Below are positions 29,716 through 37,061 of a DNA stretch of 64,000 nucleotides, in pieces (the stretch's first letter is position 1; each line of letters starts with the position of its first letter). The stretch is from Nitrospirales bacterium. GTDB lineage: Bacteria; Nitrospirota; Nitrospiria; Nitrospirales; UBA8639. The stretch covers positions 3,074,001 to 3,138,000 of the forward strand of contig JALDRJ010000002.1 of the NCBI GenBank assembly GCA_031315865.1, read 5' to 3'. The translations under genes and the position numbers were made by a program. The notes beneath the pieces were generated by a model, which ran no database searches, was not told where the DNA came from, and saw nothing but the letters and a program-made list of their open reading frames with translations.

Positions 29716-29803
29716 TGGCGGAGGGGGTAGGATTCGAACCTACGGTCCCGTGAAGGACTCCGGTTTTCAAGACCGGCCTAATCGTCCACTCTAGCACCCC
29801 TCC
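29716..29803 (-). tRNA. tRNA-Ser (UGA), copy 1
   Basis: An 88-base minus-strand gene with encoded CCA. The acceptor pairs GGAGGGG with CCCCTCC. The anticodon arm is CCGGT-CTTGAAA-ACCGG, giving anticodon TGA. A long variable arm of class II type is present. A near-identical copy lies at 36974-37061; three positions differ, two of them compensatory in the T stem. Confidence 0.93.
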
Positions 29804-29919: not shown

Positions 29920-32253
29920 TTAAACGAAATTATACACGGTCGTTGAAAGCTCTTCTAATGTAACCGGCTTGTGAAGGATGCCGGATAACCCATCTCTTTG
30001 CAATTCAAGGACACTCTCAACTTGGCGATATCCTGTGATCAACACTACTTTAATTTCTATGCCCTTCTTCTTTAATTCATAAAAACATTCCCGGCCTGTC
30101 ATTTCCGGCATGAGATCGTCAAGCAGGATCAGGGAGATATCCTCCTTGGCATGATAGACGACTTCAAGACATTCCTTAGCCGATGAGGCTTCTAGAGTCT
30201 TATACCCTAACGATTGCAGCATGCTTGATAGAATAAAACGTGTACGTTGATCATCATCACAGACCAATACATTCAAATTTTTGGGAGGATTCATTTTGAG
30301 TGTGGGTTCGAATATCTGAGCCCCCATTTTCTGTAGGGGTTCGGTGGTCAAAAATTCGATCAAAAAGCAAGCCCCACCTTTCTTCTGATTTCTCGCTTTT
30401 ATCGTTCCGCCATGTTCTTTCACGGTTCCATAGACGACTGAAAGCCCAAGTCCAGTGCCTTCGTGAGATGATTTGGTGGAGAAAAAAGGTTCAAAAATTC
30501 TCTCTTTTTGGTCTGGGTTTATTCCTGGACCGTTATCAGTGACCTCTAGACATATTGACTCCCTCAATGACCGTGATCCCTTAGAGGAATGGTCTTCATG
30601 AAAAAAATGACTGTTAAACGTTTTGATGTATATTTTCCCGTTTTGCCCATCAACGGCTTGAATCGCATTGATCCCTAGGTTCACAAGCATATTCTTCAAT
30701 TGTGCCGAATCACCCATTAAGCAGCTATTTGTCGCCAACAATTTAAGATGAAAGTGAGCCTTCTTCTTGCTTCCCCGTCTGAGGAACAAAATGGCATCAC
30801 TGATAATCTCATGGAGGTCAACGTGAGTAAACGTCGTCCCGCCTTTTTTGGAAAACGATAACAGTTTTTTCGTGAAGGCTTTGGCGTCGTGTGCCGCATC
30901 AATAACCGTGGCGAGATAGGGCTCCAAACTGGGGTTCGTATTCCCGGCTTGAATGAGTTGGGCTGCGCCTAATAACGCACATAAGGAATTATTGAAATCG
31001 TGCGCCACTCCACCAGCCAGCATTCCCAGTGAGTCAAGTCTTTGCCCATGTTTGAGACGTTGTTCGAGGCTCAAATCCTCAAGGAGAGCTTGTAAGGTTT
31101 CTTCTAATTCTCTCAAGTATGTCTGAAAGGGAAAGACATACCCCTTTTCCTGCTGCCGTATCGCAAGGATTCCCCGGTATGCAGAACCGGACTCGTTTGC
31201 GTCATTCTCCCATGTCTTCGAAAACGTAAAAAGTGAAAATGTCATTCCATCGCATGTCATGACTTCAGGAGGTGTTTCAGACTCGATTAAGAACGTTTGG
31301 ATTTTTTCTTTCAGTGCCTTTTTGAATGTCCGATTCGTTATCCAATGAGAGAGCACGCAAGGTTTCTCAGAATCTTTAACGTAACAAAAAAGTAGCGGCT
31401 CTTCTCTGTGAAAGTATGACAGGAGCTCGACACTATGTTTAATGAATATGTGTGGCTGTTTGACCGCATATCGCAATCGATTGAATTCTCTTGACAGCAC
31501 AAGCTTGGCATCACTGACACTTTTTACTAATAAGCAGTTCGCTTGCTGTGCCGTGAGTTCGGTCGCCTGACCAAAAAAACGGAGATTGCCACCCGATAGC
31601 ACAGCAAGATGCGTGGCGTGCGAAATCGTCTCGTCGTATTTTTCAGTGGAGAACACGAACGTAATACCTTGCTGCGAAAGTCGAACAATTTTCTTGAAAA
31701 GATGATCGTTGCTGTGTTCGTCTAAATCCTGAAAGACTCCATTCAATATGTACAAAGATGTCTTGCACAGAAACCCACGAACCAGCGAAGCGATCACTCG
31801 TTCTTTACGTGACATCAGAGTGGATGGTCGTTCCCATTCTAACTCTTGACCTAATTCATCATATAAATCTTGAGCCCGTTTACGGAGGTGATTTCTATTT
31901 AAAATTCCTTCACCAATCGCCAGTGGAACTCCCAAAAAAAGATTATCGAATAACGAGAGTTCATGGTAATAGCCTAGGTCGCCAAATATTCCTGAGATCG
32001 AGATTTTCTCTGACGAGGTAGGATGGAGATCATGGAGATATTGCACGGATCCTTGTGTGGGGTTCAGGTGTCCAGACAATATTTGCAGGAGAGCACTCGA
32101 TTCGTCAGGGTTTTCACTGGCGATTGCGACAATGGCCCCCTGAGGGATAGAGAACGAGATTTCCCGAAGAATCGGAGGAAACGTCTCACCGTGGTACGAC
32201 ACATCTTCCAAGGTCAGGATATGGTGGCCAGCAGAATTTGAGTAAAGAGACAT
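29920..32253 (-). CDS. pseudo-ABC ATPase fused to hybrid histidine kinase and receiver
   Basis: A 777-residue fusion. Residues 1-235 have the shape of a sugar-ABC ATPase (RbsA-like) but all catalytic motifs are destroyed: Walker A reads SENPDESS with Ser52 where Lys is needed; signature region LMSRKER; Walker B ILNGVFQDLD with Asp and Glu replaced by Asn171 and Gly172; the switch His is missing. Residues 240-390 are a possible degenerate GAF-like region. The kinase is intact: H-box GGVAHDFNN (His418), N-box NLGINA (Asn529), DNGPGI, FEPFFSTK and GTGLGL. A complete receiver follows with DDD at 666-668, Asp712 in LLDDLMPEMTG, Thr740 and Lys762. The gene ends a module with an RbsB-like protein and an RbsC-like permease, the permease stop lying 4 bases away. 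It most likely reports permease state to the kinase. Confidence 0.85.
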   Translation of the reverse strand: MSLYSNSAGHHILTLEDVSYHGETFPPILREISFSIPQGAIVAIASENPDESSALLQILSGHLNPTQGSVQYLHDLHPTSSEKISISGIFGDLGYYHELSLFDNLFLGVPLAIGEGILNRNHLRKRAQDLYDELGQELEWERPSTLMSRKERVIASLVRGFLCKTSLYILNGVFQDLDEHSNDHLFKKIVRLSQQGITFVFSTEKYDETISHATHLAVLSGGNLRFFGQATELTAQQANCLLVKSVSDAKLVLSREFNRLRYAVKQPHIFIKHSVELLSYFHREEPLLFCYVKDSEKPCVLSHWITNRTFKKALKEKIQTFLIESETPPEVMTCDGMTFSLFTFSKTWENDANESGSAYRGILAIRQQEKGYVFPFQTYLRELEETLQALLEDLSLEQRLKHGQRLDSLGMLAGGVAHDFNNSLCALLGAAQLIQAGNTNPSLEPYLATVIDAAHDAKAFTKKLLSFSKKGGTTFTHVDLHEIISDAILFLRRGSKKKAHFHLKLLATNSCLMGDSAQLKNMLVNLGINAIQAVDGQNGKIYIKTFNSHFFHEDHSSKGSRSLRESICLEVTDNGPGINPDQKERIFEPFFSTKSSHEGTGLGLSVVYGTVKEHGGTIKARNQKKGGACFLIEFLTTEPLQKMGAQIFEPTLKMNPPKNLNVLVCDDDQRTRFILSSMLQSLGYKTLEASSAKECLEVVYHAKEDISLILLDDLMPEMTGRECFYELKKKGIEIKVVLITGYRQVESVLELQRDGLSGILHKPVTLEELSTTVYNFV

Positions 32254-32257
32254 GGGA

Positions 32258-33238
32258 TTATCGTCTGGGATGTTCAGTGACTGTCAGATCGATCAGCAAC
32301 GTACTTAAGACCAAGATTCCGGCCATGACATAACTGACCTCTGGCTGGAGCCCTAAAAACTCTAATTGATGCTGAATGATGACGAGGAGGATAGTGATAA
32401 TGAAAATCCGTGACGGAGAAGGCAGGCGACGTTGAAGGCCAGCATTACTAATGATCACGATTGCCAGGGCATCAAATGGAAGCCGCATCCCAATATTGGG
32501 ACTCGCGGTATTGAGTCGAGCATAGAAAATCGTGCTTGCAAGGAGGGCCGTCAAGGCAGCGAAAATAAAGGCGAAAATTTTATAATGACGGGTCGATATC
32601 CCGCAAAATCGAGCTCGCCTGCCCCCTAATCCTATTGCAATTAAATTCCTTCCGGTTGTCGAACGTCGAAAGAATGCCTCTAAAGCACCTACCAGTGCGA
32701 GAAAGACGAGGATGGATGTGGGGAGCCCCCAGACTTCCCCCCACCCTAAGGATTCCCAAACAGCCACGGTTGTACCAGGTTGCGAAGTAGAGGGCATTCC
32801 ATCGCAGAGAAAAAAAACTACGCCTCGTATGATGAACATCATCGTAAAGGTCACAACCAATGTAGATCCGACTGTGACAGAGATAATTCCGTTAACAAAA
32901 CCAATGACTCCTACTAGGGGAATAATCAGGAGCATGGCTATGAATGGAGACAGAGTATTGGAGAGCATTGAGAAGGTCATTAAGCTGAACGCAAAGGTTG
33001 CTCCCAACGACAAGTCATACTCATTGACATGAAAGACCATTAACGCTCCTAAAGCGATAATCCCTAGTACAGCCGTTTCATGCCCGATGCTTGCTAAACT
33101 CCACACGGCGACGTTATGTGGGTTGATGAGTGACAATGTCGCAATAATGCACATCATCATCAGGATCATGACCCATTCGACCGTAGAAAACTTTTGGTAG
33201 TCGACAGGGGGTTGATGGTACAGATTTGAGGTTACCAC
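32258..33238 (-). CDS. RbsC-like permease of the sensor module
   Basis: A 326-residue BPD_transp_2-family inner-membrane protein with eight to ten hydrophobic segments. The family loop is preserved as TTGRNLIAIGLGG followed by ARFCGISTRHYKIFAFIF near residue 195, which in true importers contacts the ATPase. The Gly-rich segment that normally follows (IGGTSLSGG-like) is degraded to AIVIISNAGLQRRLPSPS, which suggests that translocation is impaired. It starts at GTG overlapping the stop of the RbsB-like gene by 7 bases. Its partner ATPase domain is the catalytically dead one encoded just downstream. I infer that it acts as a transmembrane signal transducer. Confidence 0.8.
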   Translation of the reverse strand: MVTSNLYHQPPVDYQKFSTVEWVMILMMMCIIATLSLINPHNVAVWSLASIGHETAVLGIIALGALMVFHVNEYDLSLGATFAFSLMTFSMLSNTLSPFIAMLLIIPLVGVIGFVNGIISVTVGSTLVVTFTMMFIIRGVVFFLCDGMPSTSQPGTTVAVWESLGWGEVWGLPTSILVFLALVGALEAFFRRSTTGRNLIAIGLGGRRARFCGISTRHYKIFAFIFAALTALLASTIFYARLNTASPNIGMRLPFDALAIVIISNAGLQRRLPSPSRIFIITILLVIIQHQLEFLGLQPEVSYVMAGILVLSTLLIDLTVTEHPRR

Positions 33239-34266
33239 TCTGGCACGATTCCTCGGGCAATCCCTGGAGTCACGAGGACTTGTGGGATTTCAATGAAAAA
33301 GTTTACGTGTTCTCCATCCATTAATTTTTGAACTGTTTGAATCACCTTTTGTCCTTCCTCAGCAATGGAAGAATACGTGGCATACTGAATATCTCCAGTA
33401 TGCATGAAGTTCTTCACATCCTGAGTGAATTCGAGTGTCACAACCTTGATGTCCTTAATTTTATTTTTTTGAAGAATGTGCACGACCGCCACAGCCGCTT
33501 CTGCCCATTGTGTGACAATCACCGTACCCAGTGTCTTTTCATCGACCATTCTTTGAATTTCACGTGCGACGATCTGAATATTCCATCCAGGAATGAGCAG
33601 CTTTTCGATGAGCGTCCAGTGATCTTTGTGGGCATCAAAGGAATCAAGAAATCCTTTCTCTCGAAATCGTTGCGGTGCTGTTCCGGGCGCCCCTTCAATT
33701 AAAACGATATTTATTGGCGTATCTCTTGCCAAAAGTTCGACAGCCTTTCCAAGTATTTGGCCGGCTTTCAACTCATCGCGACCGATATGAGCATTCACAA
33801 TGGCGGATGGCTGGTTTTGTGTATGACCGACCCCATTTGTGAATGTCACAAAGGGAATAGACTTTTCTCTGATTAACTTAATAATGGCTGACATGGCTTG
33901 GTTATCAACAGAACACAGAGCGATCGCATCAAAGGTTTTACCTAACAAAACATTCTCGACCTGCTCTATTTGAACGTAGGGGTCCCATCCGGCATTAAAT
34001 GTCACGAGATCTATATCAAGTCTCTTCGCTTCTTGATCCATGGCACGTGTTTCAATCGAGAAAAATTTCACGGAGCCTGGAAGGAAGACAGCCATGTGCT
34101 TTTTATGGTCTTCGAATTGATGCAGTTGAATGAAAATGTTCAAGATTATCAGGAGACATAAAACCCCAAGCAGAGAAAGCAGTATTTTTTGGGGAAATGC
34201 GAACGATGGCATGTCAATGCATCGATGCTCACGCCCCTCTATGTTCAGTGCGTTTATGATACTCAT
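33232..34266 (-). CDS. membrane-tethered RbsB-like periplasmic binding protein
   Basis: A 344-residue protein with a strong uncleaved-looking transmembrane segment (about residues 28-48, ILLSLLGVLCLLIILNIFI) followed by a type I periplasmic binding fold of the sugar-binding RbsB group. Hallmarks are AVFLPGSVKFFSIETRAMDQ, IEQVENVLLGKTFDAIALCS, AHIGRDELKAGQILGKAVEL and VIVTQWAEAAVAVVHI. No cleavage motif such as AxA is present after the helix, so it probably stays anchored, unlike free RbsB. ATG codons at 34266 and 34212 are both possible starts. It is coupled to the permease gene. Confidence 0.8.
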   Translation of the reverse strand: MSIINALNIEGREHRCIDMPSFAFPQKILLSLLGVLCLLIILNIFIQLHQFEDHKKHMAVFLPGSVKFFSIETRAMDQEAKRLDIDLVTFNAGWDPYVQIEQVENVLLGKTFDAIALCSVDNQAMSAIIKLIREKSIPFVTFTNGVGHTQNQPSAIVNAHIGRDELKAGQILGKAVELLARDTPINIVLIEGAPGTAPQRFREKGFLDSFDAHKDHWTLIEKLLIPGWNIQIVAREIQRMVDEKTLGTVIVTQWAEAAVAVVHILQKNKIKDIKVVTLEFTQDVKNFMHTGDIQYATYSSIAEEGQKVIQTVQKLMDGEHVNFFIEIPQVLVTPGIARGIVPEW

Positions 34267-34662: not shown

Positions 34663-36108
34663 TCAATCTTCTTCGGAGGATGGCTCAGGTTCTACCCATG
34701 GGTACAGAACTTTCTCACATAAATTACAGAGACTGTGGGAAAGCTTAGTGTGGTGGGTGGAACTTAAATAGGCCTCTACACTCTGCCATTCACCATTTTC
34801 CTTAAATAGGCTTTTGCAGACAGCGCAGATTATCTGGAGGTTCTTTGTTGAGACGTTTTTTTCATCCATCGTATGTATATGGCAGGTGGTATGAGCGGGT
34901 TCTTCCCCTACCATCGTATGATCGGGATTCGTTCGTCTGAGATTCCAGTTTTGATGGCCAAGCTCTGGGAATTCTTTCATGACTTCAAGTATCAGTGAGC
35001 GGTTGCTGATCGCGATCTCTTCCATGCCTAACCAGGGCAGGGGTGGGAGTGGAGAGGGGCTGGTCCAGATGATATCGAACAAGCCATCTTCTCGAGCTCT
35101 TCCAATGCGTGCGTACCTTCCAACATGATGATTTTTCTGTATCTGAATCATACCGCTAGGGCCATTGAAAAAAGTTCCGATAAGGTGTTCAGACAAGACT
35201 TCGCAATCGAAGGTTTTGCAGCGTTCGACTAGTTGTTTCCATAGATACACCTGACTGTAAGATGTCACAACGGGATCGGAGATCGGATAATGTGGGCCAA
35301 GATATTCTTTGCATTTTTTCACGAAACGTTGATTTTCATCATCAGGGATCGTTGAAAAATAGTTCCAGCAGGCATAACTCCCTTTGACTTCCTCCGCAAT
35401 GCTCAGAGATTCGATTTCGGAAAGGCTAAAGGACATAATCGGGATAACTTCAGGGCCTATCCCAGCCTGATACAGTTTTTTGAAAAACACTAAGTTACTG
35501 TCTCCATTAAGAGTATTAAAGATTATGTCTGGCTTACATTCGATGATCATGTCGATGAGATTGGAAACATTCGTCGATCCCAACGGTATATATTCCTCAC
35601 CTAATACGGTTCCTTTATCATTTTTGACGAATAGACTAATCAAGCGATTGCTGGTTCTTGGAAAGACGTAGTCAGAACCAACGAGGACGCAACGGTTGAA
35701 GCCTCTCGATAACGCCCACTTTACTCCAGGAAGGATCTGTTGGTTAAAACAACTTCCCGTATATATGATGCAAGGGGCTTCCTCTAAGCCTTCGTATTGC
35801 AGGGGATACCAGAGAAGGGATTGGTGTCGTTCAATGATGGGCTTGACGGCTTTTCGCGATGCAGAGGTCCAACAGCCAAACACACAGGCGACATCATTTT
35901 TCGTTAAGAGAGTTTCTGCTTGGGATGCATATTCCTCGGGAATTGATTTGCAATCTTTGACGATTGCTTCAATTTGTTGACCCAGCACGCCTCCAGATTG
36001 GTTAATTTCGTGAACAGCCATTTCAATGGCTTGTACCATCGGAACCTCATTTAACTTCATCGTTCCGGAGAGCGAATGAATGATTCCAATTTTTATGGTG
36101 TGAGTCAT
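34663..36108 (-). CDS. cytoplasmic AmiC/UrtA-like ligand-binding protein with Cys-rich signalling tail
   Basis: A 481-residue protein. Residues 1-390 are an amide/urea-type binding domain: TIKIGIIHSLSGTMKLNEVP at the start, ASRKAVKPIIERHQSLLWYP, YPLQYEGLEEAP, GSDYVFPRTSNRLI. It resembles AmiC and UrtA, but no signal peptide exists, nor in the 36 residues of a longer frame to 36216. It is therefore probably cytoplasmic, like AmiC. The last 55 residues form a separate unit with IICAVCKSLFKENGEWQSVE and SHSLCNLCEKVLYPW. I know this Cys-pair tail from the C-termini of bacterial two-component signalling proteins. The combination suggests a soluble sensor that touches a regulatory partner, perhaps the kinase fusion. 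No classic Shine-Dalgarno sequence is visible at either start. Confidence 0.75.
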   Translation of the reverse strand: MTHTIKIGIIHSLSGTMKLNEVPMVQAIEMAVHEINQSGGVLGQQIEAIVKDCKSIPEEYASQAETLLTKNDVACVFGCWTSASRKAVKPIIERHQSLLWYPLQYEGLEEAPCIIYTGSCFNQQILPGVKWALSRGFNRCVLVGSDYVFPRTSNRLISLFVKNDKGTVLGEEYIPLGSTNVSNLIDMIIECKPDIIFNTLNGDSNLVFFKKLYQAGIGPEVIPIMSFSLSEIESLSIAEEVKGSYACWNYFSTIPDDENQRFVKKCKEYLGPHYPISDPVVTSYSQVYLWKQLVERCKTFDCEVLSEHLIGTFFNGPSGMIQIQKNHHVGRYARIGRAREDGLFDIIWTSPSPLPPLPWLGMEEIAISNRSLILEVMKEFPELGHQNWNLRRTNPDHTMVGEEPAHTTCHIHTMDEKNVSTKNLQIICAVCKSLFKENGEWQSVEAYLSSTHHTKLSHSLCNLCEKVLYPWVEPEPSSEED

Positions 36109-36216
36109 GTGTTGTAATCGTCTCTTTAGTGTTCGTGAGTAGATATTCTTTGTACAGCCCTTGATTTGCTTTCCCCGATGACGAATTGTCCGGTAAGGTT
36201 GCTCAATCGGAGCCAT

Positions 36217-36973: not shown

Positions 36974-37061
36974 TGGCGGAGGGGGTGGGATTCGAACCCA
37001 CGGTCCCGTGAAGGACTCCGGTTTTCAAGACCGGCCTATTCGTCCACTCTAGCACCCCTCC
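36974..37061 (-). tRNA. tRNA-Ser (UGA), copy 2
   Basis: An 88-base minus-strand gene with encoded CCA and anticodon TGA, as in copy 1. Differences are an A-U to G-C pair exchange in the T stem and one base in the D region. It lies 265 bases downstream of serS, its cognate synthetase, on the same strand. Confidence 0.93.

Follow-up and report, generated by a model that had tools for sequence, protein, structure and literature searches.

A sensor kinase probably assembled from the parts of a ribose-type ABC importer in Nitrospirales

The minus strand of a 64,000-nucleotide stretch of a Nitrospirales genome (hereafter the window) encodes an RbsB-type binding protein, an RbsC-type permease and a fusion protein in which a degenerate ABC ATPase domain (pseudo-NBD) is joined in one open frame to a hybrid histidine kinase. 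Judging from these sequences, the importer-like gene set is probably an antenna sensing a molecule outside the cell and not a pump, and a ribose-type ABC importer has quite likely been taken over as a whole to build a transmembrane sensor kinase. The features of the system are as follows:

29920..32253, minus strand: fusion protein of 777 residues, a single open frame with pseudo-NBD, GAF-like domain, HisKA, HATPase_c and receiver
31561..32253, minus strand: pseudo-NBD, residues 1-231, ABC ATPase fold of the sugar-importer (AraG/LsrA/YtfR/RbsA) type
31069..31530, minus strand: GAF-like domain, approximately residues 242-395, whose long C-terminal helix runs into HisKA
30841..31026, minus strand: HisKA, residues 410-471 (Pfam, 5.6e-7), with the phospho-acceptor His418 at 31000-31002
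30352..30714, minus strand: HATPase_c, residues 514-634 (Pfam, 1.3e-20), with N-box, DNGPG and GTGLGL intact
29935..30270, minus strand: receiver domain, residues 662-773 (Pfam, 2.7e-19), with Asp712 (30118-30120) and Lys762
32258..33238, minus strand: RbsC-type permease of 326 residues (PF02653, 5.8e-29), ending 4 bases before the fusion start
32417..32449, minus strand: permease residues 264-274 (SNAGLQRRLPS), at the position of a GGxxxxGG motif in all nine ordinary permeases aligned
33232..34266, minus strand: RbsB-type binding protein of 344 residues (PF13407, 1.7e-28), with a 7-base overlap with the permease gene

The fusion protein, its partners and its relatives

A preliminary description of this DNA had reported an inactive ABC domain at 31560-32253 within a frame of 777 codons; that frame was recovered at 29920-32253 on the minus strand, the interval described corresponding to residues 1-231. 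The Pfam model ABC_tran matches residues 29-170 (E 1.9e-8), and among the NCBIfam models the ABC part is closest to AraG (61.6 bits), followed by LsrA (54.4), YtfR (53.8) and AlsA (53.6), with lower matches to GguA (51.9) and RbsA (41.5), all six families scoring far under their own cut-offs. The remainder of the chain has the sequence characteristics of a hybrid histidine kinase, namely the HisKA His, the N, G1 and G2 boxes of the HATPase domain and the receiver Asp and Lys. The catalytic residues of kinase, receiver and phospho-site are intact in all three copies of the fusion that were found (see below), His418 is invariant among them, and in each of them the ABC ATPase domain and the kinase share one frame. 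None of the three has a hydrophobic stretch that could form a transmembrane helix, so a signal from outside must arrive via a partner.

The order of the genes on the minus strand is binding protein, permease, then fusion. The window binding protein has a single N-terminal membrane helix at approximately residues 28-46, and the three binding proteins have in common one N-terminal hydrophobic helix, no obvious signal-peptidase site and a C-terminal PEW. A binding protein of the Peripla_BP_4 type and a BPD_transp_2 permease are both present, as in CUT2 importers. The glycine motif of the permease, a hallmark of the family, has diverged from GGxxxxGG to SNxxxxRR in all three copies, which would fit a permease no longer selected for transport.

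When 269 genomes of the class were searched with residues 1-395 of the fusion, two copies were found besides that of the window, in the Nitrospira MAGs RBC069 (G196, L013) and RBC044 (G194, L014); a search of the phylum (395 genomes) gave the same three. Compared with the window copy, the fusions of RBC069 and RBC044 are 38 and 37% identical over their full length and the permeases 44 and 43%, and the three genes stand in identical order in both MAGs, with the same kind of binding protein ahead. The copy set is of three, all from related bacteria of a nitrifier lineage and two of them from closely related MAGs, of which RBC044 is only 86% complete. Permeases matching the alignment of the three copies at 1e-12 occur in 3 of the 269 class genomes, exactly those with the fusion. 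The system is absent from the four other genomes of the genus to which the window belongs (G001-G004), and is thus dispensable within the genus. No fusion was found among 398 genomes drawn from the phylum of G501, the genome with a Rhodocyclaceae locus, where the five matches cover the kinase part only. None of 3506 matching plasmid records covers 80% of the fusion, the long plasmid matches H16 and H20 being kinases with no ABC domain; two of 834 plasmid records reach 80% coverage when the query is the ABC-plus-linker part alone. The viral contigs searched contain no relative, and a two-motif scan of 84,980 species genomes returned only the two Nitrospira copies and three ordinary ABC ATPases. 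In most rows of the 269-, 395- and 398-genome searches scoring was confined to 2 to 7 candidates per genome, and the two-motif scan detects only sequences with one of two short motifs, so that distant relatives may be missed and the searches of other phyla are shallow.

Nucleotide motifs, predicted fold and selection

The state of the nucleotide motifs was read from an alignment with seven ordinary sugar-importer ATPases (RbsA from E. coli and six from plasmids), and is as follows for the window copy:

32092..32118, minus strand: Walker A position, SENPDESSA (residues 46-54) against the ordinary GENGAGKST, with Lys replaced by Ser52
31981..31983, minus strand: Q-loop position, with Gln replaced by Gly91
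31801..31815, minus strand: signature position, MSRKE (residues 147-151) against LSGGQ
31738..31743, minus strand: Walker B position, Asp-Glu replaced by Asn171-Gly172 (Asp-Arg in both orthologues)
31642..31644, minus strand: switch-His position, Glu204 (Glu and Gly in the orthologues)

The altered residues listed in the preliminary description are all correct by this alignment. Its statement that every catalytic motif is destroyed holds for the window copy but goes too far for both orthologues, in which Walker B reads FDR, the Asp being kept and the catalytic Glu replaced by Arg. At Walker A the orthologues have SANPRETTT and STNVRETTA (Lys to Thr), at the signature LSPQE and MSPHE, and in both the Q-loop Gln is replaced by Glu. 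Loss of the Walker A Lys, the Q-loop Gln, the catalytic Glu and the switch His is therefore common to the three pseudo-NBDs, while that of the Walker B Asp is found in the window copy only. The working Walker A, Walker B, signature and switch of a CUT2 ATPase are found in none of the three, the Walker B Asp being all that is kept, in two; orthologues with active motifs had been named as evidence against the preliminary interpretation, and neither of the two has the active set. Several of the seven ordinary ATPases also have a loose signature in their N-terminal domain (e.g. LSIAE, LPLSV and LDAVA), and since it is weak in these as well, this motif alone is poor evidence. When conserved columns are defined as those kept in at least six of the seven ordinary domains (16 columns in nucleotide motifs and 36 others), the window copy keeps 4 of 16 against 21 of 36 (Fisher p 0.037), and the orthologues keep 5 of 16 against 15 of 36 (p 0.55) and 3 of 16 against 17 of 36 (p 0.068). 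The preferential loss at nucleotide-motif columns is only modest, and in the two orthologues it does not clearly exceed that at the other conserved positions; the pseudo-NBD has therefore diverged broadly, beyond its motifs.

An AlphaFold2 model of residues 1-410 (five aligned sequences, mean pLDDT 75.5) has an ABC fold, with pLDDT of 74-90 for most blocks of the NBD and three weak stretches, at the N-terminus and in blocks near residues 71-80 and 111-120. Foldseek gave solved ABC ATPases from E 1.1e-15, and VIA-align against such structures gave Z of 23-24 (e.g. MetN, 6cvl_D, 222 residues at 2.4 A). The fold, which had been said to be preserved, is thus predicted to be so by both the model and its structural matches. 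Residues 242-408 were modelled separately (three sequences, pLDDT 75.9), and their top PDB matches are mostly GAF and PHY domains; the best Foldseek match is the GAF domain of NifA (8jrc), with an E of only 4.6e-3, and VIA-align gave the GAF domain of NLH1 (4g3k) at Z 10.5 over 131 residues (3.4 A). In Pfam, the linker region has no family in the window copy or in L013, and only a chance-level coiled coil in L014. On the basis of the predicted structure we describe residues 242-395 as a GAF-like domain.

Selection was estimated from one pair of copies, RBC069 and RBC044 (NG86, 2000 bootstraps), the dN/dS values against the window copy being saturated for most parts and hence unused. For this pair dN/dS is lowest for the receiver (0.08), followed by the GAF-like domain (0.18) and the kinase (0.20), and highest for the pseudo-NBD (0.34, with a bootstrap 95% range of 0.24-0.49), and 0 of 2000 bootstraps reach 1 for any part of the fusion; the permease and the mature part of the binding protein give 0.14 and 0.16, also with NG86. 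Biopython calculations with NG86 and with YN00 (YN00 values 0.45 for the pseudo-NBD, 0.29 for the GAF-like domain, 0.19 for the kinase and 0.12 for the receiver) are in broad agreement. Of the four fusion parts tested, the pseudo-NBD shows the weakest constraint, yet it is under purifying selection. The frames are full length and contain no stops in all three genomes. The check proposed earlier, of dN/dS and of frame decay, has therefore come out on the side of an intact gene, and a pseudogene is rejected on the three full-length copies together with a dN/dS of about 0.34. Because the orthologues lack the active motif set and their frames are full length and under purifying selection, these sequences support what had been proposed for the domain, that selection would be acting to keep the fold without ATP hydrolysis.

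Genomic surroundings

Two tRNA genes and a further gene for a binding protein surround the system in the window:

29716-29803 and 36974-37061, minus strand: two tRNA-Ser(TGA) genes, with 88 of 91 bases identical
34663-36216, minus strand: UrtA-like binding protein of the urea type (PF13433, 2e-126), with no signal peptide seen

Between the two tRNA genes lie the three genes of the system and the UrtA-like gene. GC content is 0.43-0.46 inside this block (0.48 in one stretch); just outside it is 0.49-0.51 towards serS, and mixed, at 0.45-0.55, towards HtrA. The block may be an acquired island. The HtrA gene adjoining it is found in the four other genomes of the genus; a search for the empty site gave no serS or tRNA-Ser by HtrA in three loci (G004 being left out, and the stretch of G002 stopping at a contig end). 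The UrtA-like protein has a C-terminal tail with two CxxC pairs, a tail which resembles one from sensor proteins. In neither of the two Nitrospira MAGs does this gene adjoin the operon. The genome of the window has a paralogue of it elsewhere, within about 3 kb of a 982-residue frame with kinase domains.

In both Nitrospira MAGs, a LamB-type porin gene follows the fusion on the same strand, about 45 bases behind it:

L011:4991-6484 and L012:5884-7377, minus strand: LamB-type maltoporins of the Nitrospira MAGs (PF02264, E 6e-56 in RBC044)

Each MAG has one LamB, at the fusion locus only. As a component of the system in the window LamB was rejected, as there is none in the genome of the window or in the four genomes of the genus. 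Its place next to the fusion in the MAGs hints at a sugar as the ligand.

A putative route from binding protein to kinase

Conservation among the three pseudo-NBDs (69 of 231 residues invariant) is densest in one stretch of the domain:

31924..31962, minus strand: residues 98-110 (ELSLFDNLFLGVP), 11 of 13 invariant

The enrichment of invariant residues in this stretch has a hypergeometric probability of 4e-5, for a segment picked post hoc, after inspection. It follows the Q-loop, at the place where in ABC structures the coupling helix of the permease docks on NBDs, and is a putative docking segment. A search by sequence for solved structures of the permease family found none for the window permease or for E. 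coli RbsC. The permease is the only adjacent membrane-spanning candidate fitting an NBD, so that permease and pseudo-NBD are the only visible route to the periplasm, and the binding protein could inform the kinase only if these two link both. The domain had been called a coupling module, and this would be the best reading of the anatomy, given that the kinase is soluble, that the permease lacks another cognate ATPase and that a strongly conserved segment lies at the NBD-docking place; the permease, the tethered binding protein and the GAF-like domain had no part in that proposal.

On balance we lean towards a system in which a complete ABC importer has become a non-transporting receptor, its dead ATPase domain would be the input of a soluble kinase, and the conformational cycle would signal without hydrolysis by the cassette. 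The tethered binding protein would capture a periplasmic ligand, possibly a sugar, and dock on the permease dimer, which would shift its conformation as in a transport cycle but without pumping. The cytoplasmic face of the permease would then move two pseudo-NBDs, one per kinase protomer, which would still dock although productive ATP binding or hydrolysis would be gone. This movement would reach the kinase dimer through the GAF-like domain and its long exit helix, and the dimer would phosphorylate itself and its own receiver domain. As the second NBD of an RbsA-type protein is replaced here by the GAF-like and kinase parts, the kinase dimer itself would pair the two NBDs.

It is also possible, if rather unlikely, that the pseudo-NBD serves only as a membrane anchor on the permease, the GAF-like domain reading a cytoplasmic signal and the binding protein having a minor or modulating role. 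The GAF-like domain directly precedes the kinase and could sense a cytoplasmic ligand alone, and the pseudo-NBD is less constrained than it is between the MAGs (0.34 against 0.18); however, purifying selection acts on the binding protein and the permease, which are conserved together as a set, a membrane-tethered binding-protein fold makes little sense for a pure anchor, and it is the GAF-like domain that has diverged most between the window copy and one from Nitrospira, at 22% identity. We consider it very improbable that import persists, with another ABC ATPase of the cell powering the permease and the pseudo-NBD reporting transport, in a somewhat Bce-like manner. Shared ATPases do occur among other importers, and all three genomes are rich in other ABC ATPases, the RbsA model having 23, 21 and 30 matches in them at 1e-10. 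None of these genomes, however, has an RbsA-type ATPase over the 745-bit cut-off (best matches 96, 98.9 and 172 bits, the last, in RBC069, being a join across the urea-transporter ATPases UrtD and UrtE), the fused domain would occupy the NBD-docking place, and the glycine motif of the permease is lost in all three copies. An ordinary importer with its ATPase encoded elsewhere is rejected on the same result. PF02653 permeases number one in the genome of the window, one in RBC044 and three in RBC069, two of these being UrtB and UrtC of a urea transporter operon. That the ABC domain is a decaying relic on a working kinase is scarcely credible: it does change fastest among the fusion parts tested, with motif losses that differ between copies, but the three frames are full length and have no stops, dN/dS is well below 1 with no bootstrap at or above it, and the fold, with its 69 invariant residues, is predicted to be intact.

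The non-transporting receptor which we favor is a variant of transporter-derived sensing that lies outside the Ks-Amt5, Bce and CbrA families. In Ks-Amt5 of Candidatus Kuenenia stuttgartiensis ammonium is bound without efficient translocation and a signal passes to the fused kinase (PMC5764959), so that there, too, a transporter module binds its ligand, hardly moves it and drives a histidine kinase; but Amt channel and kinase are in one chain, whereas here the importer is made of separate proteins, and of its parts the dead ATPase domain alone has been joined to the kinase. Bce modules (BceAB-BceS) likewise combine an ABC transporter and a histidine kinase into one sensory system, but there the transporter binds and uses ATP and the kinase is separate, in the membrane (PMC10314905), whereas the dead ATPase is here the input of a soluble kinase. 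The permease is of the BPD_transp_2 and not of the FtsX-like type, the NBD is dead, and the kinase has no membrane helix. In the SLC5-STAC kinases CbrA and CrbS, too, the input domain of a (hybrid) histidine kinase resembles a transporter; this is a secondary symporter in one chain with no ABC parts, and in CbrA, where symporter and kinase are fused, histidine is still transported (PMC7096432). A review of kinase sensing names BceS and Ks-Amt5 as transporter cases (PMC8534201). As in kinases of the Ks-Amt5 and CbrA kind, a transporter-derived part is covalently joined to the kinase in all three copies, but the membrane-spanning part is not in the kinase chain, the permease being encoded by a separate gene. 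Compared with the ribose-type (CUT2) system RbsABC, the binding protein, permease and ATPase fold are from the same families, but here the ATPase domain is dead, single and fused to a kinase, the permease motif is lost and the binding protein is tethered by a helix. Periplasmic binding proteins of the sugar type feed membrane-spanning histidine kinases in XylFII-LytS, LuxP-LuxQ, TorT-TorS and ChvE-VirA; in these the kinase itself spans the membrane, while here the permease and pseudo-NBD stand in between. A literature search, with subscription papers mostly outside its scope, found no published fusion of an ABC ATPase domain to a histidine kinase.

The system would be a natural case in which ATP hydrolysis has been removed from an ABC importer while the ligand-binding and NBD-docking parts are kept under selection. 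If this is true, movement from binding protein to NBD can by itself carry information, the system offers a clean case for asking what an importer does with a dead motor, and ABC importers join the transporters that have been turned into kinase receptors.
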